Shown here piece by piece: positions 148-23,741 of a DNA stretch of 23,945 nt; position 1 is the first letter of the stretch, and each line of letters begins with the position of its first letter. The stretch covers positions 1 to 23,945 of the IMG/VR virus record IMGVR_UViG_3300001460_000206, one strand, 5' to 3'. The position numbers and the translations under genes were made by a program. The DNA comes from a virus. Under the pieces are notes generated by a model that made no database searches, was not told the DNA's origin, and saw nothing but the letters and a program-made list of their open reading frames with translations.

Positions 148-1593
148 ATGAAAACCATAGGCAGAGATTTCGGAGATGTGGCACGTAAAGTTTACGCTAC
201 GGCTAGCGGAACTTTGCCCAATGGTAAGCCTGTGGCAGTTAATAGCGATGGGACTGTGAGTCTTATTTCTGGTGACTCTATAGGTTCAGAATCTGTATTT
301 GAATCAATCAGGTCAGACCCTATTGTTTCAACATTCGATAGTAACAGTAATAAAGTTGTTATTGCTTATGGTGATTACGGCAATAGTTATTATGGTACAG
401 CGGTAGTAGGAACTGTTTCTGGTACGTCTATAACCTTCGGTACGCCTGTAGTATTTAATTCAGGAACAACTGTTATATCTATTGGTATAACTTTTGACAG
501 TAATTCTAATAAAGTTGTAATTGTATATAGGAACAACAGTAACTCTTATCGTGGGACGGCAATCGTTGGAACCGTAAGCGGCACAAATATTAGTTTTGGA
601 ACCGCCGTGGTTTACGCCAGTAGTGCTACTGGTGCGCATGAGGCAACTTTTGACAGCAATAGTAATAAAGTAGTAATAGTCTATTATAATGAAGGCAACA
701 GTAACTATGGTACAGCTATTGTAGGAACTGTAAGTGGTACAGGTATCAGCTTCGGCTCTGCTGTAGTATATGAATCTGCCTATGTAGCAAAAGCTACTCC
801 TGTATTTGATAGCAATTCTAATAAAATAGTAATTGCCTACCGGGATGGCGGCAACAGCAACCATGGCACGGCTATTGTAGGTACGGTATCGAGTACAAGT
901 ATTAGCTTCGGCTCTGCTGTGGTTTATCACGCTGGGGACACACCACTTGTCACTGCTACATTTGATAGTAATAGTAATAAAGTAGTTATTGTCTTTAGGG
1001 ACGATGGCGATGGTCAAAAAGGCAAGGCTATTGTTGGAACTGTTAGTGGGACAGGAATTAGTTTTGGGTCGGAAGTTGAATGGGTTGGAGGTAGGTACGA
1101 TAATTATTCTGCTGCATTTAACTCTACAGACAACAAAGTTCTTATATTTTATGACGATTACAATGACAGCGGTAAGGGGAAGTACGTCAAAGGTCAGGTT
1201 AGTGGGACTACTATAAGTTTTACTTCTTCATCACTTTTTCATCCTCTTGTCACCACTTTTATTTCAGCAACATACGATAGCAACTCTAATAGAATTGTTA
1301 CTTCATATAGAGATGACAGCAATCAAGATCACGGAACGTCAGTCGTACTTGCTCTTGGCTCTGGAGCAGCACTCACCTCAGAGAACTACATTGGCATGAC
1401 ACCAAGCGCATATCCGTCTGGCGCAGGTGCAGAGATAGATACCAAAGGTGCGATTAACACAGAGCAATCGGGCCTCACAGCAGGGCAGAGCTACTTTGTG
1501 CAAACTGACGGCACTATAGGAACCACAGCGGGTGATCCAAGCGTCTTCGCTGGCACGGCTGTAAGCGCCACTAAACTAATCGTGAAAGGTTGA
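148..1593 (+). CDS. Fibre-like virion protein with a seven-repeat beta-propeller-like domain (paralogue 1)
   Basis: The 481-residue protein has three parts. Residues 1-45 hold a short conserved module (GTLPNGKPVAVNSDGTVS). Residues about 46-404 hold seven repeats of 52-53 residues, each opening with a variant of FDSNSNKVVIAYRD and continuing to GTVSGTSISFGTAVVY. The C-terminal part holds LTSENYIGM, QSYFVQTDG and SVFAGTAVSATKLIVKG. Seven regular repeats with a lone strand (GSESVF) before repeat 1 and a last repeat lacking its final strand suggest a closed seven-bladed propeller. GGAGA lies about seven bases before the ATG. It is followed by a close paralogue. A host-recognition or tail-appendage role is inferred from its place beside the tail hub gene; no enzymatic motif was seen. 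Confidence 0.75.
   Translation: MKTIGRDFGDVARKVYATASGTLPNGKPVAVNSDGTVSLISGDSIGSESVFESIRSDPIVSTFDSNSNKVVIAYGDYGNSYYGTAVVGTVSGTSITFGTPVVFNSGTTVISIGITFDSNSNKVVIVYRNNSNSYRGTAIVGTVSGTNISFGTAVVYASSATGAHEATFDSNSNKVVIVYYNEGNSNYGTAIVGTVSGTGISFGSAVVYESAYVAKATPVFDSNSNKIVIAYRDGGNSNHGTAIVGTVSSTSISFGSAVVYHAGDTPLVTATFDSNSNKVVIVFRDDGDGQKGKAIVGTVSGTGISFGSEVEWVGGRYDNYSAAFNSTDNKVLIFYDDYNDSGKGKYVKGQVSGTTISFTSSSLFHPLVTTFISATYDSNSNRIVTSYRDDSNQDHGTSVVLALGSGAALTSENYIGMTPSAYPSGAGAEIDTKGAINTEQSGLTAGQSYFVQTDGTIGTTAGDPSVFAGTAVSATKLIVKG
334..1359 (+). repeat. Seven tandem ~156-nt coding repeats
   Basis: Repeat starts (the F or Y of the FDSNSNK-type motif) are at 334, 493, 649, 805, 961, 1117 and 1273. Spacing is 159 nt once and then 156 nt five times. 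The peptide is well conserved while codons vary (for example gatagtaacagt, gacagtaattct and gacagcaatagt for the same Asp-Ser-Asn-Ser), so the repeats are old and kept at protein level. Repeat 7 is shortened. Confidence 0.9.
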
Positions 1594-1595
1594 CC

Positions 1596-3125
1596 ATGAA
1601 CTTTATACCTCCACAGGACGAGACACGATTACGAGCCGTTGCATCTGGTGTACTTCCTAACGGGAAGCCTGTTGTGGTTAATGCAGATGGGACTGTGAGT
1701 GTTGTGGGTGGCACGAACCTCACCGCCGAGAACTACGTTGGCATGTCGGGTGGGCCTGTGGAGTATGATGTTACTGCAGAAGCACTAGGCTCAGAGACTG
1801 TTTTTGGCAATAATCCAGGCGGTCCTTCTTATCCTTACATGGGTATGGCTTTTGACCTTAACGCAAACAGAGTTGTAATTGCTTACAGAGATTCGGGTAA
1901 CGATAGTAAAGGGACTGTTGTTGTTGGTGCGATTAGTGGGACCAGCATCAGCTTTGGAACTCCTGTGGTCCTTCTTGACACTGGCAGTGGGGGCCAAGCA
2001 GACTTTTTAAATGTGGTGTATGATAGCAATAGCAATAAAGTAGTCATTAGCTTTTCAGCCTATATTGCTGCTAGTGGAAGCAGTGGTAGGGCTTGTGTTG
2101 GAACAGTAAACCCTGCCGATAACTCTATAAGTATTGGAACCCTTGCAACTTTTACAAGCGGGAACAGCTCCACTACAGATGCGTCAGCTACATTTGATAG
2201 CAACTTAAACAAGGTAGTTATTGCCTATGGAAATAGTGCAAATTCTGGTTACGGGACCTCTGTAGTAGGAACCGTAAGTGGGACTAACATCAGTTTTGGC
2301 ACTGTTGTAGTATTTGAAAGTGCAAGTGTAACAAACATTAGTTCTGCGTTTGATAGTAACTCTAACAAGGTAGTCATTGCCTATAGAGACACTGGAAATA
2401 GTGATTACGGAACTTCTATTTTAGGGACAGTTAGTGGCACTGGAATCAGTTTTGGGACTGCTGTAGTTTTTAACTCTGGTAGAGCCGATAAAAACGCTGT
2501 GGTTTTTGACAGCAATAGTAATAAAATAGTGATTGCCTTCGTGGACGGGGGAGATAATGAAAAAGGAAAAGCTGTCGTAGGAACAGTTAGTGGCACTGGA
2601 ATCAGTTATGGGTCTGAAGTTACCTATTCAGCCTCTGGGTCAAGGGTAGATTGGGTTTCCGCAGTATATAATTCAACGGCTCAAAAGGTTATTATTTCGT
2701 ATCGACGTGTTATTGACTCTAGTGCCGCCCAGAGTGGTGAGCTTATTTCAGGAACAGTAAGTGGGACTAGCATCAGTTTCGGCACTGCCACACAATTTAA
2801 TAATGCGGGGTCAAATTACAATGGCTCTGCTTATGATTCCACAAGCAGCACAGTGGTGACAGCCTATTCAGACGCTGGAAACTCCAATAAAAATACGGCT
2901 ATTGTTTATCAAGCTGGTTTTGACAACACAGTCCGAGGCCAAGTAGCCAGCGGGTCAAGCGCAAGTGTAGACATCATAGGCACGGTAAGCACGAACCAAG
3001 ATGGCCTCACACCGGGTCAGTCATACTTTGTGCAAACAGACGGTACTCTTGGTTTAACAGCAGACGATCCAAGTGTCTTTGCAGGGACTGCAATATCTGC
3101 TACCAAATTACTGGTAAAATCATAA
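1596..3125 (+). CDS. Fibre-like virion protein with a seven-repeat beta-propeller-like domain (paralogue 2)
   Basis: This 509-residue protein is a tandem paralogue of the gene before it: GVLPNGKPVVVNADGTVSVV at the start and QSYFVQTDG with SVFAGTAISATKLLVKS at the end are nearly the same. Its propeller-like repeats start at 1851, 2019, 2193, 2349, 2505, 2667 and 2832, with spacing of 52-58 codons, so some blades carry small insertions. A strand GSETVF precedes repeat 1 and repeat 7 lacks the matching strand. LTAENYVGM lies before the propeller here, but after it in paralogue 1. I chose ATG 1596, which has AAAGG six bases upstream; a TTG at 1590 would overlap the preceding stop. Role inferred as tail fibre or appendage. 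Confidence 0.75.
   Translation: MNFIPPQDETRLRAVASGVLPNGKPVVVNADGTVSVVGGTNLTAENYVGMSGGPVEYDVTAEALGSETVFGNNPGGPSYPYMGMAFDLNANRVVIAYRDSGNDSKGTVVVGAISGTSISFGTPVVLLDTGSGGQADFLNVVYDSNSNKVVISFSAYIAASGSSGRACVGTVNPADNSISIGTLATFTSGNSSTTDASATFDSNLNKVVIAYGNSANSGYGTSVVGTVSGTNISFGTVVVFESASVTNISSAFDSNSNKVVIAYRDTGNSDYGTSILGTVSGTGISFGTAVVFNSGRADKNAVVFDSNSNKIVIAFVDGGDNEKGKAVVGTVSGTGISYGSEVTYSASGSRVDWVSAVYNSTAQKVIISYRRVIDSSAAQSGELISGTVSGTSISFGTATQFNNAGSNYNGSAYDSTSSTVVTAYSDAGNSNKNTAIVYQAGFDNTVRGQVASGSSASVDIIGTVSTNQDGLTPGQSYFVQTDGTLGLTADDPSVFAGTAISATKLLVKS
1851..2921 (+). repeat. Seven tandem coding repeats in the second fibre-like gene
   Basis: The repeats start at 1851, 2019, 2193, 2349, 2505, 2667 and 2832. 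Repeats 3 to 5 are the most regular (156 nt); repeats 1, 2, 6 and 7 are longer or more diverged. The consensus matches that of the upstream gene, so the array was copied as part of a whole-gene duplication or swapped between the two genes. Confidence 0.85.
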
Positions 3126-22263: not shown

Positions 22264-22437
22264 ATGAAAACTGTTTTATCATCTGAGGAGATAATAAGGC
22301 GCTTGGACGGACGTGTTTTAGCAAAAGTTGTTAGAGACATAGGCATTTCTAAGCACACACTTTACCGTCTAATTAGAGGTGAAGATGTTTATTATTCCAC
22401 TATAAGCAAGTTATCAGATTATCTGATTGAAAAATAA
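22264..22437 (+). CDS. Small Cro-like helix-turn-helix regulator
   Basis: The 57-residue protein is short but well formed. GGAG lies seven bases before the ATG. It is nearly all one Cro/C1-type HTH: LAKVVRDIGISKHTLYRLIR, with GISKHTLYRLIRGEDV as turn and recognition helix, then a final helix (YSTISKLSDYLIEK). Small proteins of this shape bind palindromic operators as dimers. Its place at a divergent control region with repeated TGTAT half-sites suggests that it governs the early operons and itself. No integrase or second repressor is visible here, so a lysogeny switch cannot be claimed. Confidence 0.75.
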   Translation: MKTVLSSEEIIRRLDGRVLAKVVRDIGISKHTLYRLIRGEDVYYSTISKLSDYLIEK

Positions 22438-22472
22438 AAGGCTCACAGAGAGGTAAAAAACTGTGAGCCTTT
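22437..22472. terminator. Perfect 12-bp hairpin after the regulator gene
   Basis: AAAGGCTCACAG (22437-22448) pairs fully with CTGTGAGCCTTT (22461-22472) around a 12-base loop. The T tract is poor on the plus strand (TTTCAAATTT) but better on the minus strand (TTTTATTTTTC). It may stop transcription partly, protect mRNA ends or act as a control hairpin. Confidence 0.65.
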
Positions 22473-22476
22473 CAAA

Positions 22477-22524
22477 TTTAGCAAGGAGTAACAAAAGCAC
22501 GTTACTCGATTTCTTTAGCAAGGA
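22477..22524 (+). repeat. Leader with a doubled TTTAGCAAGGA and a 7-bp inverted repeat
   Basis: TTTAGCAAGGA occurs at 22477-22487 and 22514-22524. Between them GAGTAAC (22486-22492) and GTTACTC (22501-22507) can form a hairpin with an AAAAGCAC loop. The second copy provides or lies next to the ribosome site of the initiator gene; the first copy holds AAGGAG, without a start codon behind it. Confidence 0.6.
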
Positions 22525-22535
22525 AAAGGGAAAAA

Positions 22536-23231
22536 ATGTCTAATTTAGTTAGTAACTTTATTCAAACAAAAAAAGTAGGATCAAGCACAAAAAAAGCAAT
22601 TCTAATGTATATGGCTGATAAGGCTAGTGATGATGGTTCCGGCGTTTGGGTCAGCAAAAAGAATATGTGCGCGGATTTAGAGCTAAGTGTAAGAGCACTA
22701 CAAACAAATATTAAACTTTTATTAATGTATGAATTTTTGATCGAATCAGGCCGAAAAAAATGTAAGAATGGTTATACGATAGATTATACCATCAATTTTG
22801 AGGCTTTTAATATATGTGAAAGTACTCGAAAAACACCCGCAGCAGATGCACCCCCGCAAGAGATGCACCCCTACCCCCGCACTAGCTGCACCCCTACCCC
22901 TGCATCAGATGCACCCAAACCACCCTTAGAACCATCCTTAGAACCTATTATAAGTGTAAAGGATATTTTAAATGATTGGTTAAAGGATAAAAAAGCAGCA
23001 GATAGTTTTGTCGCTTATCGAAAGAGTATAAAAAAACCATTAACTAAAACTGGAGCAACAAGGCTTGCTACTAAGCTTAGACATATCTTTGTTGCTGGTG
23101 GTTCTCCAGAGGACGCTTTAGCAATGTGTGAGGAGAAGGGCTGGAAATCTATTGAGCCAGAATGGTATTTTAATACACTTCACGGTAAAGATAGTGTAAG
23201 ATTTAAAGAAGCAATGGACACGTTAAGATAG
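22536..23231 (+). CDS. Winged-helix replication initiator-like protein
   Basis: The 231-residue protein has an N-terminal winged-helix domain (residues 1-92: SSTKKAILMYMADKASDDGS, GVWVSKKNMCADLELSVRAL, LLLMYEFLIESGRKK) typical of phage replication starters. A Pro/Thr/Ala linker (about 97-137) follows, and then a helical C-terminal domain (DILNDWLKDKKAADSFVAYR, GATRLATKLRHIF, EWYFNTLHG). This layout is like lambda O and other phage initiators, where the first domain binds iterons and the last part contacts the helicase loader. The linker DNA carries four iterons. AAGG and AGGG lie before the ATG. The exact family was not settled, but an initiator role is well supported. Confidence 0.75.
   Translation: MSNLVSNFIQTKKVGSSTKKAILMYMADKASDDGSGVWVSKKNMCADLELSVRALQTNIKLLLMYEFLIESGRKKCKNGYTIDYTINFEAFNICESTRKTPAADAPPQEMHPYPRTSCTPTPASDAPKPPLEPSLEPIISVKDILNDWLKDKKAADSFVAYRKSIKKPLTKTGATRLATKLRHIFVAGGSPEDALAMCEEKGWKSIEPEWYFNTLHGKDSVRFKEAMDTLR
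22844..22917 (+). repeat. Four iterons inside the initiator gene
   Basis: Copies of AGATGCACCCC start at 22844, 22861, 22884 (AGCTGCACCCC) and 22907 (ending CCCA). Steps are 17, 23 and 23 bp. The two full units add TACCCC and then (C/T)GCA; the first unit lacks the six bases TACCCC. The copies fall in all three reading frames of the gene. Confidence 0.85.
22844..23010. other. Putative replication origin (iterons plus AT-rich flank)
   Basis: Four iterons are followed by a doubled CCTTAGAACC (22924-22933, 22936-22945) and then a strongly AT-rich stretch to about 23010 (for example TAAAGGATATTTTAAATG). Iterons followed by an AT-rich melting zone within the initiator gene is the layout of the lambda origin in gene O. 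No experimental marker of origin function can be seen in sequence alone. Confidence 0.6.
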
Positions 23232-23249: not shown

Positions 23250-23741
23250 ATGAAGCATGATTATAGAATAAGTTTAATAAAAAAAGAGTTGGAAAGTCTG
23301 TTAAGCAGTTATTCGGTTCCTTTACATTTGCGCAATGATCCAGGAGCAAAAGAAAAAGAAGTTGAAATAATAGTAAAGGCCATTAACCAATTTTACCCAA
23401 ATGATACTAACCAGGACGTGATTTCGGGTTCTTTTGAAAGGGCAGAGTTAAAAATTAAAGCTTCGCAGATGTCTAGGACTTGGCCTAAAGCCGCTGATAT
23501 TGTTTCAGCAATAAAGAAAAGCACTGTAAACGATTCTGTGATGACCACTAAATCAGCAGATTGGTTTCCAGACCCAAGCGTTATTCATGCTAAAAGAATA
23601 AAAAACGGTGAGCCAGTTTCTGAGAATTACATTCTAGGCAAATTAGCTGAAGAATTAATAAAGAATGGTTTGGTAACGGGTGATGATTTAAAGCCTTACA
23701 GAAACGCTCTTTCTTCTAAGAAAAAAGCCCCCACGGATTAA
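23250..23741 (+). CDS. Replication-block protein, helicase-loader position
   Basis: The 163-residue protein follows the initiator by 18 bases and has AGAGGT eight bases before the ATG. The N-terminal part is helical (ISLIKKELESLLSSYSVPLH, KEKEVEIIVKAINQFYP) and the centre has RAELKIKASQMSRTWPKAAD followed by IVSAIKKS, a pattern (TWP....I..AI) known from phage proteins placed after initiators. The C-terminal part is helical (ENYILGKLAEELIKNGLV). In lambda the gene after O is the helicase loader P, so that role is possible; no AAA+ or zinc motif is present to confirm it. Confidence 0.55.
   Translation: MKHDYRISLIKKELESLLSSYSVPLHLRNDPGAKEKEVEIIVKAINQFYPNDTNQDVISGSFERAELKIKASQMSRTWPKAADIVSAIKKSTVNDSVMTTKSADWFPDPSVIHAKRIKNGEPVSENYILGKLAEELIKNGLVTGDDLKPYRNALSSKKKAPTD

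Follow-up and report, generated by a model that had tools for sequence, protein, structure and literature searches.

In the origin of phage lambda, one of the closest described systems to the locus examined here, dimers of the initiator O bind inverted-repeat iterons within gene O itself and open an adjoining 40-bp A+T-rich region (PMC5043065). In the O gene of the related phage P27, synonymous mutations in the iterons abolished plasmid establishment (PMC7466680). Related initiators can carry different nested iterons, as is known from lambda, P22, and L (PMC8022706). Iteron plasmid origins of the RepE, pi, or RepA type also consist of arrays of initiator sites adjoining an A+T-rich region. These sites are mostly direct repeats bound by monomers (PMC5043065).

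The window analyzed here is the whole of IMG/VR record IMGVR_UViG_3300001460_000206, 23,945 bases, and is probably a fragment of a marine phage genome. Its portal protein has its nearest match in Octadecabacter Antarctic DB virus 2 (49%), which makes a marine bacterium of the Octadecabacter kind the probable host. The proteins encoded by two adjacent genes at 148-3125 are related to each other and consist of repeats centered on (T)FDSNSNKVVIAYxDxGNS; they are probably tail or receptor-binding proteins of a propeller-like kind. The initiator gene, at 22536-23231 on the + strand, encodes an O-like protein of 231 aa that matches Pfam HTH_36 (PF13730) at 9.1e-6 and PHROG 678, "replication initiation O-like," at 1e-18. 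Lambda O also matches PHROG 678 (1.7e-35). The HTH_36 match covers residues 17-62 and, at 25.8 bits against a curated cut-off of 25, is barely over the threshold. Lambda O matches PF04492 (Phage_rep_O), while a Pfam search with the window initiator returned PF13730 HTH_36 only, so the window system is not assignable to PF04492; a direct profile comparison of its N-domain with lambda O also gave no match.

An AlphaFold2 model of the initiator, built as a monomer and of moderate quality (pLDDT 71, pTM 0.42), predicts an N-terminal winged-helix DNA-binding domain at residues 1-92 (22536-22811, + strand), with helices at 17-29, 41-48, and 52-64 and wing strands at 68-76 and 79-86. The third of these helices (VRALQTNIKLLLM; 22689-22727, + strand) is the predicted recognition helix and varies with iteron type. 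Residues 101-139 (22836-22952, + strand) are predicted to form a disordered linker, with pLDDT below 50 throughout, and are followed by a helical C-terminal domain at residues 139-231 (22950-23228, + strand), which the model together with comparison of relatives indicates to be exchangeable. By sequence, no relatives of the N-domain with solved structures were found, and a fold search of the whole initiator against the PDB returned only winged-helix regulators at E > 0.01, with the DnaD N-domain at 0.22.

Upstream of the initiator is a small Cro/C1-type HTH gene (22264-22437, + strand; Pfam HTH_26, 9.4e-6). Between the two, at 22430-22479, a 19-nt inverted repeat that encloses a 12-nt loop is likely to be a transcription terminator. 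A 163-aa ORF (23250-23741, + strand) follows directly 3' of the initiator, in the position of lambda P. It is without a match in Pfam or PHROG families, and a fold search gave nothing significant, with lambda P among the non-significant matches (E 1.6). In a near-identical contig, genes that we take by eye to encode terminase come next downstream.

The sequence-only reading had placed four iterons over a flexible linker in this gene, with steps of 17 and 23 bp and codon phases of 2, 1, 0, and 2 relative to the ATG at 22536. The four copies start at 22844, 22861, 22884, and 22907, in exactly these phases and with steps of 17, 23, and 23, and the linker beneath them is the one predicted to be disordered. 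The third copy reads AGCTGCACCC and the other three AGATGCACCC; on its + strand, the whole window has TGCACCC nowhere else. The repeat unit itself had been only partly noticed; rather than a 10-bp direct repeat it is a symmetric 21-bp site, ACCCNTGCA-N5-TGCACCC. Its core dyad, GCA-N5-TGC, is exact in 4 of 4 copies, preceded by ACCCN(T/C) and followed by ACCC, with a spacer whose center is usually A. On the + strand, the full sites are iteron 1 at 22833-22853 (ACACCC GCA GCAGA TGC ACCC, dyad GCA at 22839), iteron 2 at 22850-22870 (ACCCCC GCA AGAGA TGC ACCC, dyad at 22856), iteron 3 at 22873-22893 (ACCCCC GCA CTAGC TGC ACCC, dyad at 22879), and iteron 4 at 22896-22916 (ACCCCT GCA TCAGA TGC ACCC, dyad at 22902), the last containing a perfect TGCAT-CAG-ATGCA. 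Together they cover 22833-22916, with the dyads at initiator residues 102-127, and the 17-bp step is shorter because iterons 1 and 2 have a common flank. In 500 dinucleotide shuffles of the window, four dyads never fell within 90 nt; the maximum was three, reached in 5 shuffles.

As had been proposed, this arrangement follows the plan of lambda, where ori-lambda likewise has four dyad iterons midway through the gene for the initiator, in three frames, with A+T-rich DNA on the 3' side (PMC5043065) and a small gene next, in the P position. The annotated lambda iterons fall in phases 0, 2, 2, and 1, so three-frame placement is already lambda's own and is not new. The two systems differ in the iteron (ATCCCTCAAAACGAGGGA in lambda, TGCA-N5-TGCA in the window), in the steps (20/24/23 versus 17/23/23), and in the N-domain family (PF04492 versus HTH_36). 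For Salmonella phages P22 and L (gene 18), related initiators are likewise reported to contain, within their genes, iterons unlike one another (PMC8022706); the repeat sequences differ from those of the window, with six copies of TGTCCAACGGA in L. Compared with iteron plasmid replicons, the window sites are symmetric instead of direct repeats and lie inside the initiator gene. Also comparable are the HTH_36 O-like initiators of the Pseudomonas, Aeromonas, and Stenotrophomonas phages PotUPM1, phi2, 4_4512, and CUB19, which have the same dyad as the window, CCCCGCA-N5-TGC, in the linker, in 3-7 copies with steps of 16/17 and 22/23 in several frames. They differ from the window in protein sequence (~25-36% identity), in having more copies, and in their C-terminal domains, and the database records consulted for them carry no feature annotation of the repeats.

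When the linker peptide was held fixed and its codons were redrawn synonymously, 0.83 dyads were expected against the 4 seen (P=0.001). A much weaker null, permutation of the linker's own codons, gave four dyads in 244 of 5000 trials (90 of 5000 with an ACC flank). Since this null reaches four dyads in 5% of cases, the window by itself gives statistics of moderate strength, and it is the comparison with relatives that carries the weight. In three groups of relatives, observed dyads exceed those expected from redrawn codons, at 57 versus 11.4, 61 versus 8.6, and 58 versus 7.2. Third-codon positions were compared in 15 window-type sequences and in 17 four-iteron sequences of the TTC type described below. 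Those within half-sites are variable at 0 of 8 in each group (all 16 invariant, a few of them in codons without synonyms such as Met), against 69/96 and 82/96 variable in the N-domain of the same two groups, and most spacer positions vary. The repeats had been expected at the same place in relatives despite differing linker peptides, and this is what we find: all 52 distinct members of two close groups have 2-5 dyads, 50 of them at least 3, and none of these 52 has lost the repeats while retaining this N-domain and linker.

The sequence of the sites changes together with the predicted recognition helix. In place of the GCA-N5-TGC of the window and of LQTN-type relatives, those with a RAVRx(H/N) helix have G(A/C)A-N5-TTC at the same spacing, and this pairing of helix and iteron holds for nearly all copies, in three frames. 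Because the RAVR-type relatives have GAA/GCA-N5-TTC at the same places, the same base is altered at three codon positions: the G-to-T change falls at positions 1, 3, 2, and 1, with the residue exchanges Ala-Ser, Met-Val, Cys-Phe, and Ala-Ser. The left half-site changes correspondingly in most TTC-type copies, as a symmetric site requires. Exceptions are copy 1 of the TTC type, still TGC in 7 of 17 sequences, copy 3, whose left half is still GCA, and, in a few window-type relatives, GTA in copy 1. A single-residue code (Gln56 for GCA, Arg56 for GAA) is true in the close family but fails in a wider set, where residue 52 is the most informative on iteron type in a comparison uncontrolled for relatedness. 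The link between helix and iteron may rest on few independent events.

Exchange of domains gives a further view of the same relationship. The TTC-type relatives agree with the window in N-domain and in the layout of the iterons and have an unrelated C-domain. Relatives L048-L059 have only the C-domain in common with it (64% identity), and their N-domain has no similarity to that of the window; their linker contains another dyad, of the type TTGCCC-N4-GGGCAA, in three frames, which in L048 are phases 0, 1, and 2 with steps of 22/22. Both joints are 3' of the iterons, so that sites and N-domain move together. In every combination of N- and C-domain compared, the 163-aa ORF keeps its position, and it is conserved at 29-98% identity whichever of these domains the initiator has. 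Conservation at the DNA level, as the sequence-only reading had claimed, is therefore shown by the recoding null, the fixed third positions, the concerted change of helix and half-site, and the swapped N-domain with its own three-frame dyads. To judge from these comparisons, it is the DNA sites, and not the encoded peptide, that are conserved. Since the sites overlie a disordered linker, one site sequence can be kept in three frames while the peptide drifts.

A protein-blind scan of IMG/VR by DNA pattern alone returned at least 237 stretches. Among the matches listed, 52 of 61 frame-breaking GCA arrays lie in ORFs with this N-domain, and the remaining nine lie in ORFs that appear by inspection to be truncated or divergent initiator-like, some with weak HTH_36 matches; for frame-breaking GAA arrays in the same scan the count is 52 of 63. 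Among the matches listed, frame-breaking arrays of these dyads are nearly confined to HTH initiators. Initial matches that step by 18 nt were discarded, being in-frame coding repeats in unrelated proteins, and some GAA-type matches are due to chance, namely those in GroEL genes (L279, L374, L384) and in L293, L343, and L387. Frame-breaking arrays of the same kind also occur in winged-helix-like proteins of L164, L200, L185, and L232, whose HTH_36 matches are weak at best; these proteins may be initiators not yet described. Dyad steps in N-domain ORFs among the matches listed are 17 or 21-23 (few 15, 16, or 20) and never 18 or 19, the two classes lying about half a helical turn apart.

Initiators of 10 of the 13 isolated phages examined have such arrays, with 3-7 copies in several frames. 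In L063, L068, and L071 (Aggregatibacter, Vibrio, and Stenotrophomonas phages) the linker repeats have 21/24-nt steps in one frame only, so that peptide and DNA repeats are inseparable there. Rhodobacteraceae genomes (L394-L473) also have initiators of this class. Among 73 distinct relatives in these genomes, 69 have at least 3 copies of a 9-mer in at least 2 frames in the linker; the same criterion is reached by the N-domain in 1 of 73 and by the C-domain in 3 of 73. An example in Leisingera (L395:935-2864) is preceded by what we take by eye to be an integrase-like gene and followed by what is presumably an AbiEii-like ORF, neighbors that suggest an integrated element of small size and not a full prophage.

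An AT-rich zone had been described 3' of the iterons, and it is present at 22925-23004. This thermally unstable stretch is a candidate unwinding element. Its instability over 60 bp is at the 98.4th percentile, and so in the top 2%, though it is not unique, as about 20 regions of this AT-rich record are similarly unstable. At the same place, 15 relatives have 62-77% A+T. GC skew had been suggested as a check on the position of the origin, and it tracks gene strand in both the window and a 36.3-kb relative, making it uninformative.

Taken together, we consider it very probable that the four sites are the iterons bound by the initiator at a phage replication origin that, as in lambda, lies within the initiator gene, with binding and origin function inferred from sequence. 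A dimer of the N-terminal winged-helix domain would most likely bind each GCA-N5-TGC dyad, whose half-sites would be read by the recognition helix (residues 52-64). By analogy with lambda, this complex, once assembled, would then destabilize the adjoining A+T-rich DNA at about 22925-23004. The replicative helicase would be recruited by the C-terminal domain, perhaps together with the 163-aa protein encoded downstream.

Of the other explanations, the one that comes nearest accepts that the initiator binds these sites but assigns them to control, through autoregulation or titration, with the origin elsewhere. Iteron-type sites can act in control too, and the incompleteness of the record means that a second origin could lie outside it. 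Against this, the sites are ~300 bp inside the gene rather than at a promoter, the tight cluster occurs only in the initiator gene in both the window and the 36.3-kb relative, and the arrangement equals the experimentally defined lambda origin; we regard a purely regulatory role as improbable. The repeat might instead reflect the protein, as a proline-rich low-complexity linker whose DNA repeats through codon bias. The linker is indeed Pro/Thr/Ala-rich, and after permutation of its own codons four dyads persist in 5% of cases, but the same DNA encodes DAP, MHP, and CTP, half-site third positions are fixed while spacers vary, and the steps are not multiples of three, unlike those of unrelated coding repeats with such dyads, which step 18 nt in-frame. 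In the two close groups, moreover, relatives that keep the peptide while losing the dyads were not found.

Recent tandem duplication with no function in the DNA would account for the common flanks and regular spacing of the copies. It accords poorly with spacers and phases that differ between copies, the spacers being less alike than the half-sites, with half-sites that change in concert, and with a layout kept across relatives at ~60% N-domain identity. Both duplication and a protein-level origin of the repeat therefore seem to us very remote, and a nested, lambda-like origin is the reading we prefer.

A literature search, with most subscription journals outside its coverage, found no report naming three-frame iterons. 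Two aspects seem not to be set out in the papers searched: that both half-sites are rewritten in concert, in three frames, as the recognition helix changes, and that dyad arrays which break the frame can mark an origin. We hold it to be an evenly balanced proposition that the HTH_36 O-like initiators make up a large natural series in which initiator and origin types are matched, the half-site being rewritten in three frames at once upon a change of recognition helix, and that N-domain and iterons move between phages as a single cassette joined on the 3' side of the iterons. If this is true, the position and type of the origin could be predictable from sequence alone in uncultured phages. With their matching helices, the paired TGCA-N5-TGCA and TGAA-N5-TTCA series already offer a natural experiment on the joint change of initiator and origin specificity. 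The window provides a testable candidate origin for an uncultured marine phage group, and a frame-breaking dyad array in an HTH initiator gene would be a simple signature with which to locate origins in metagenomic phages.
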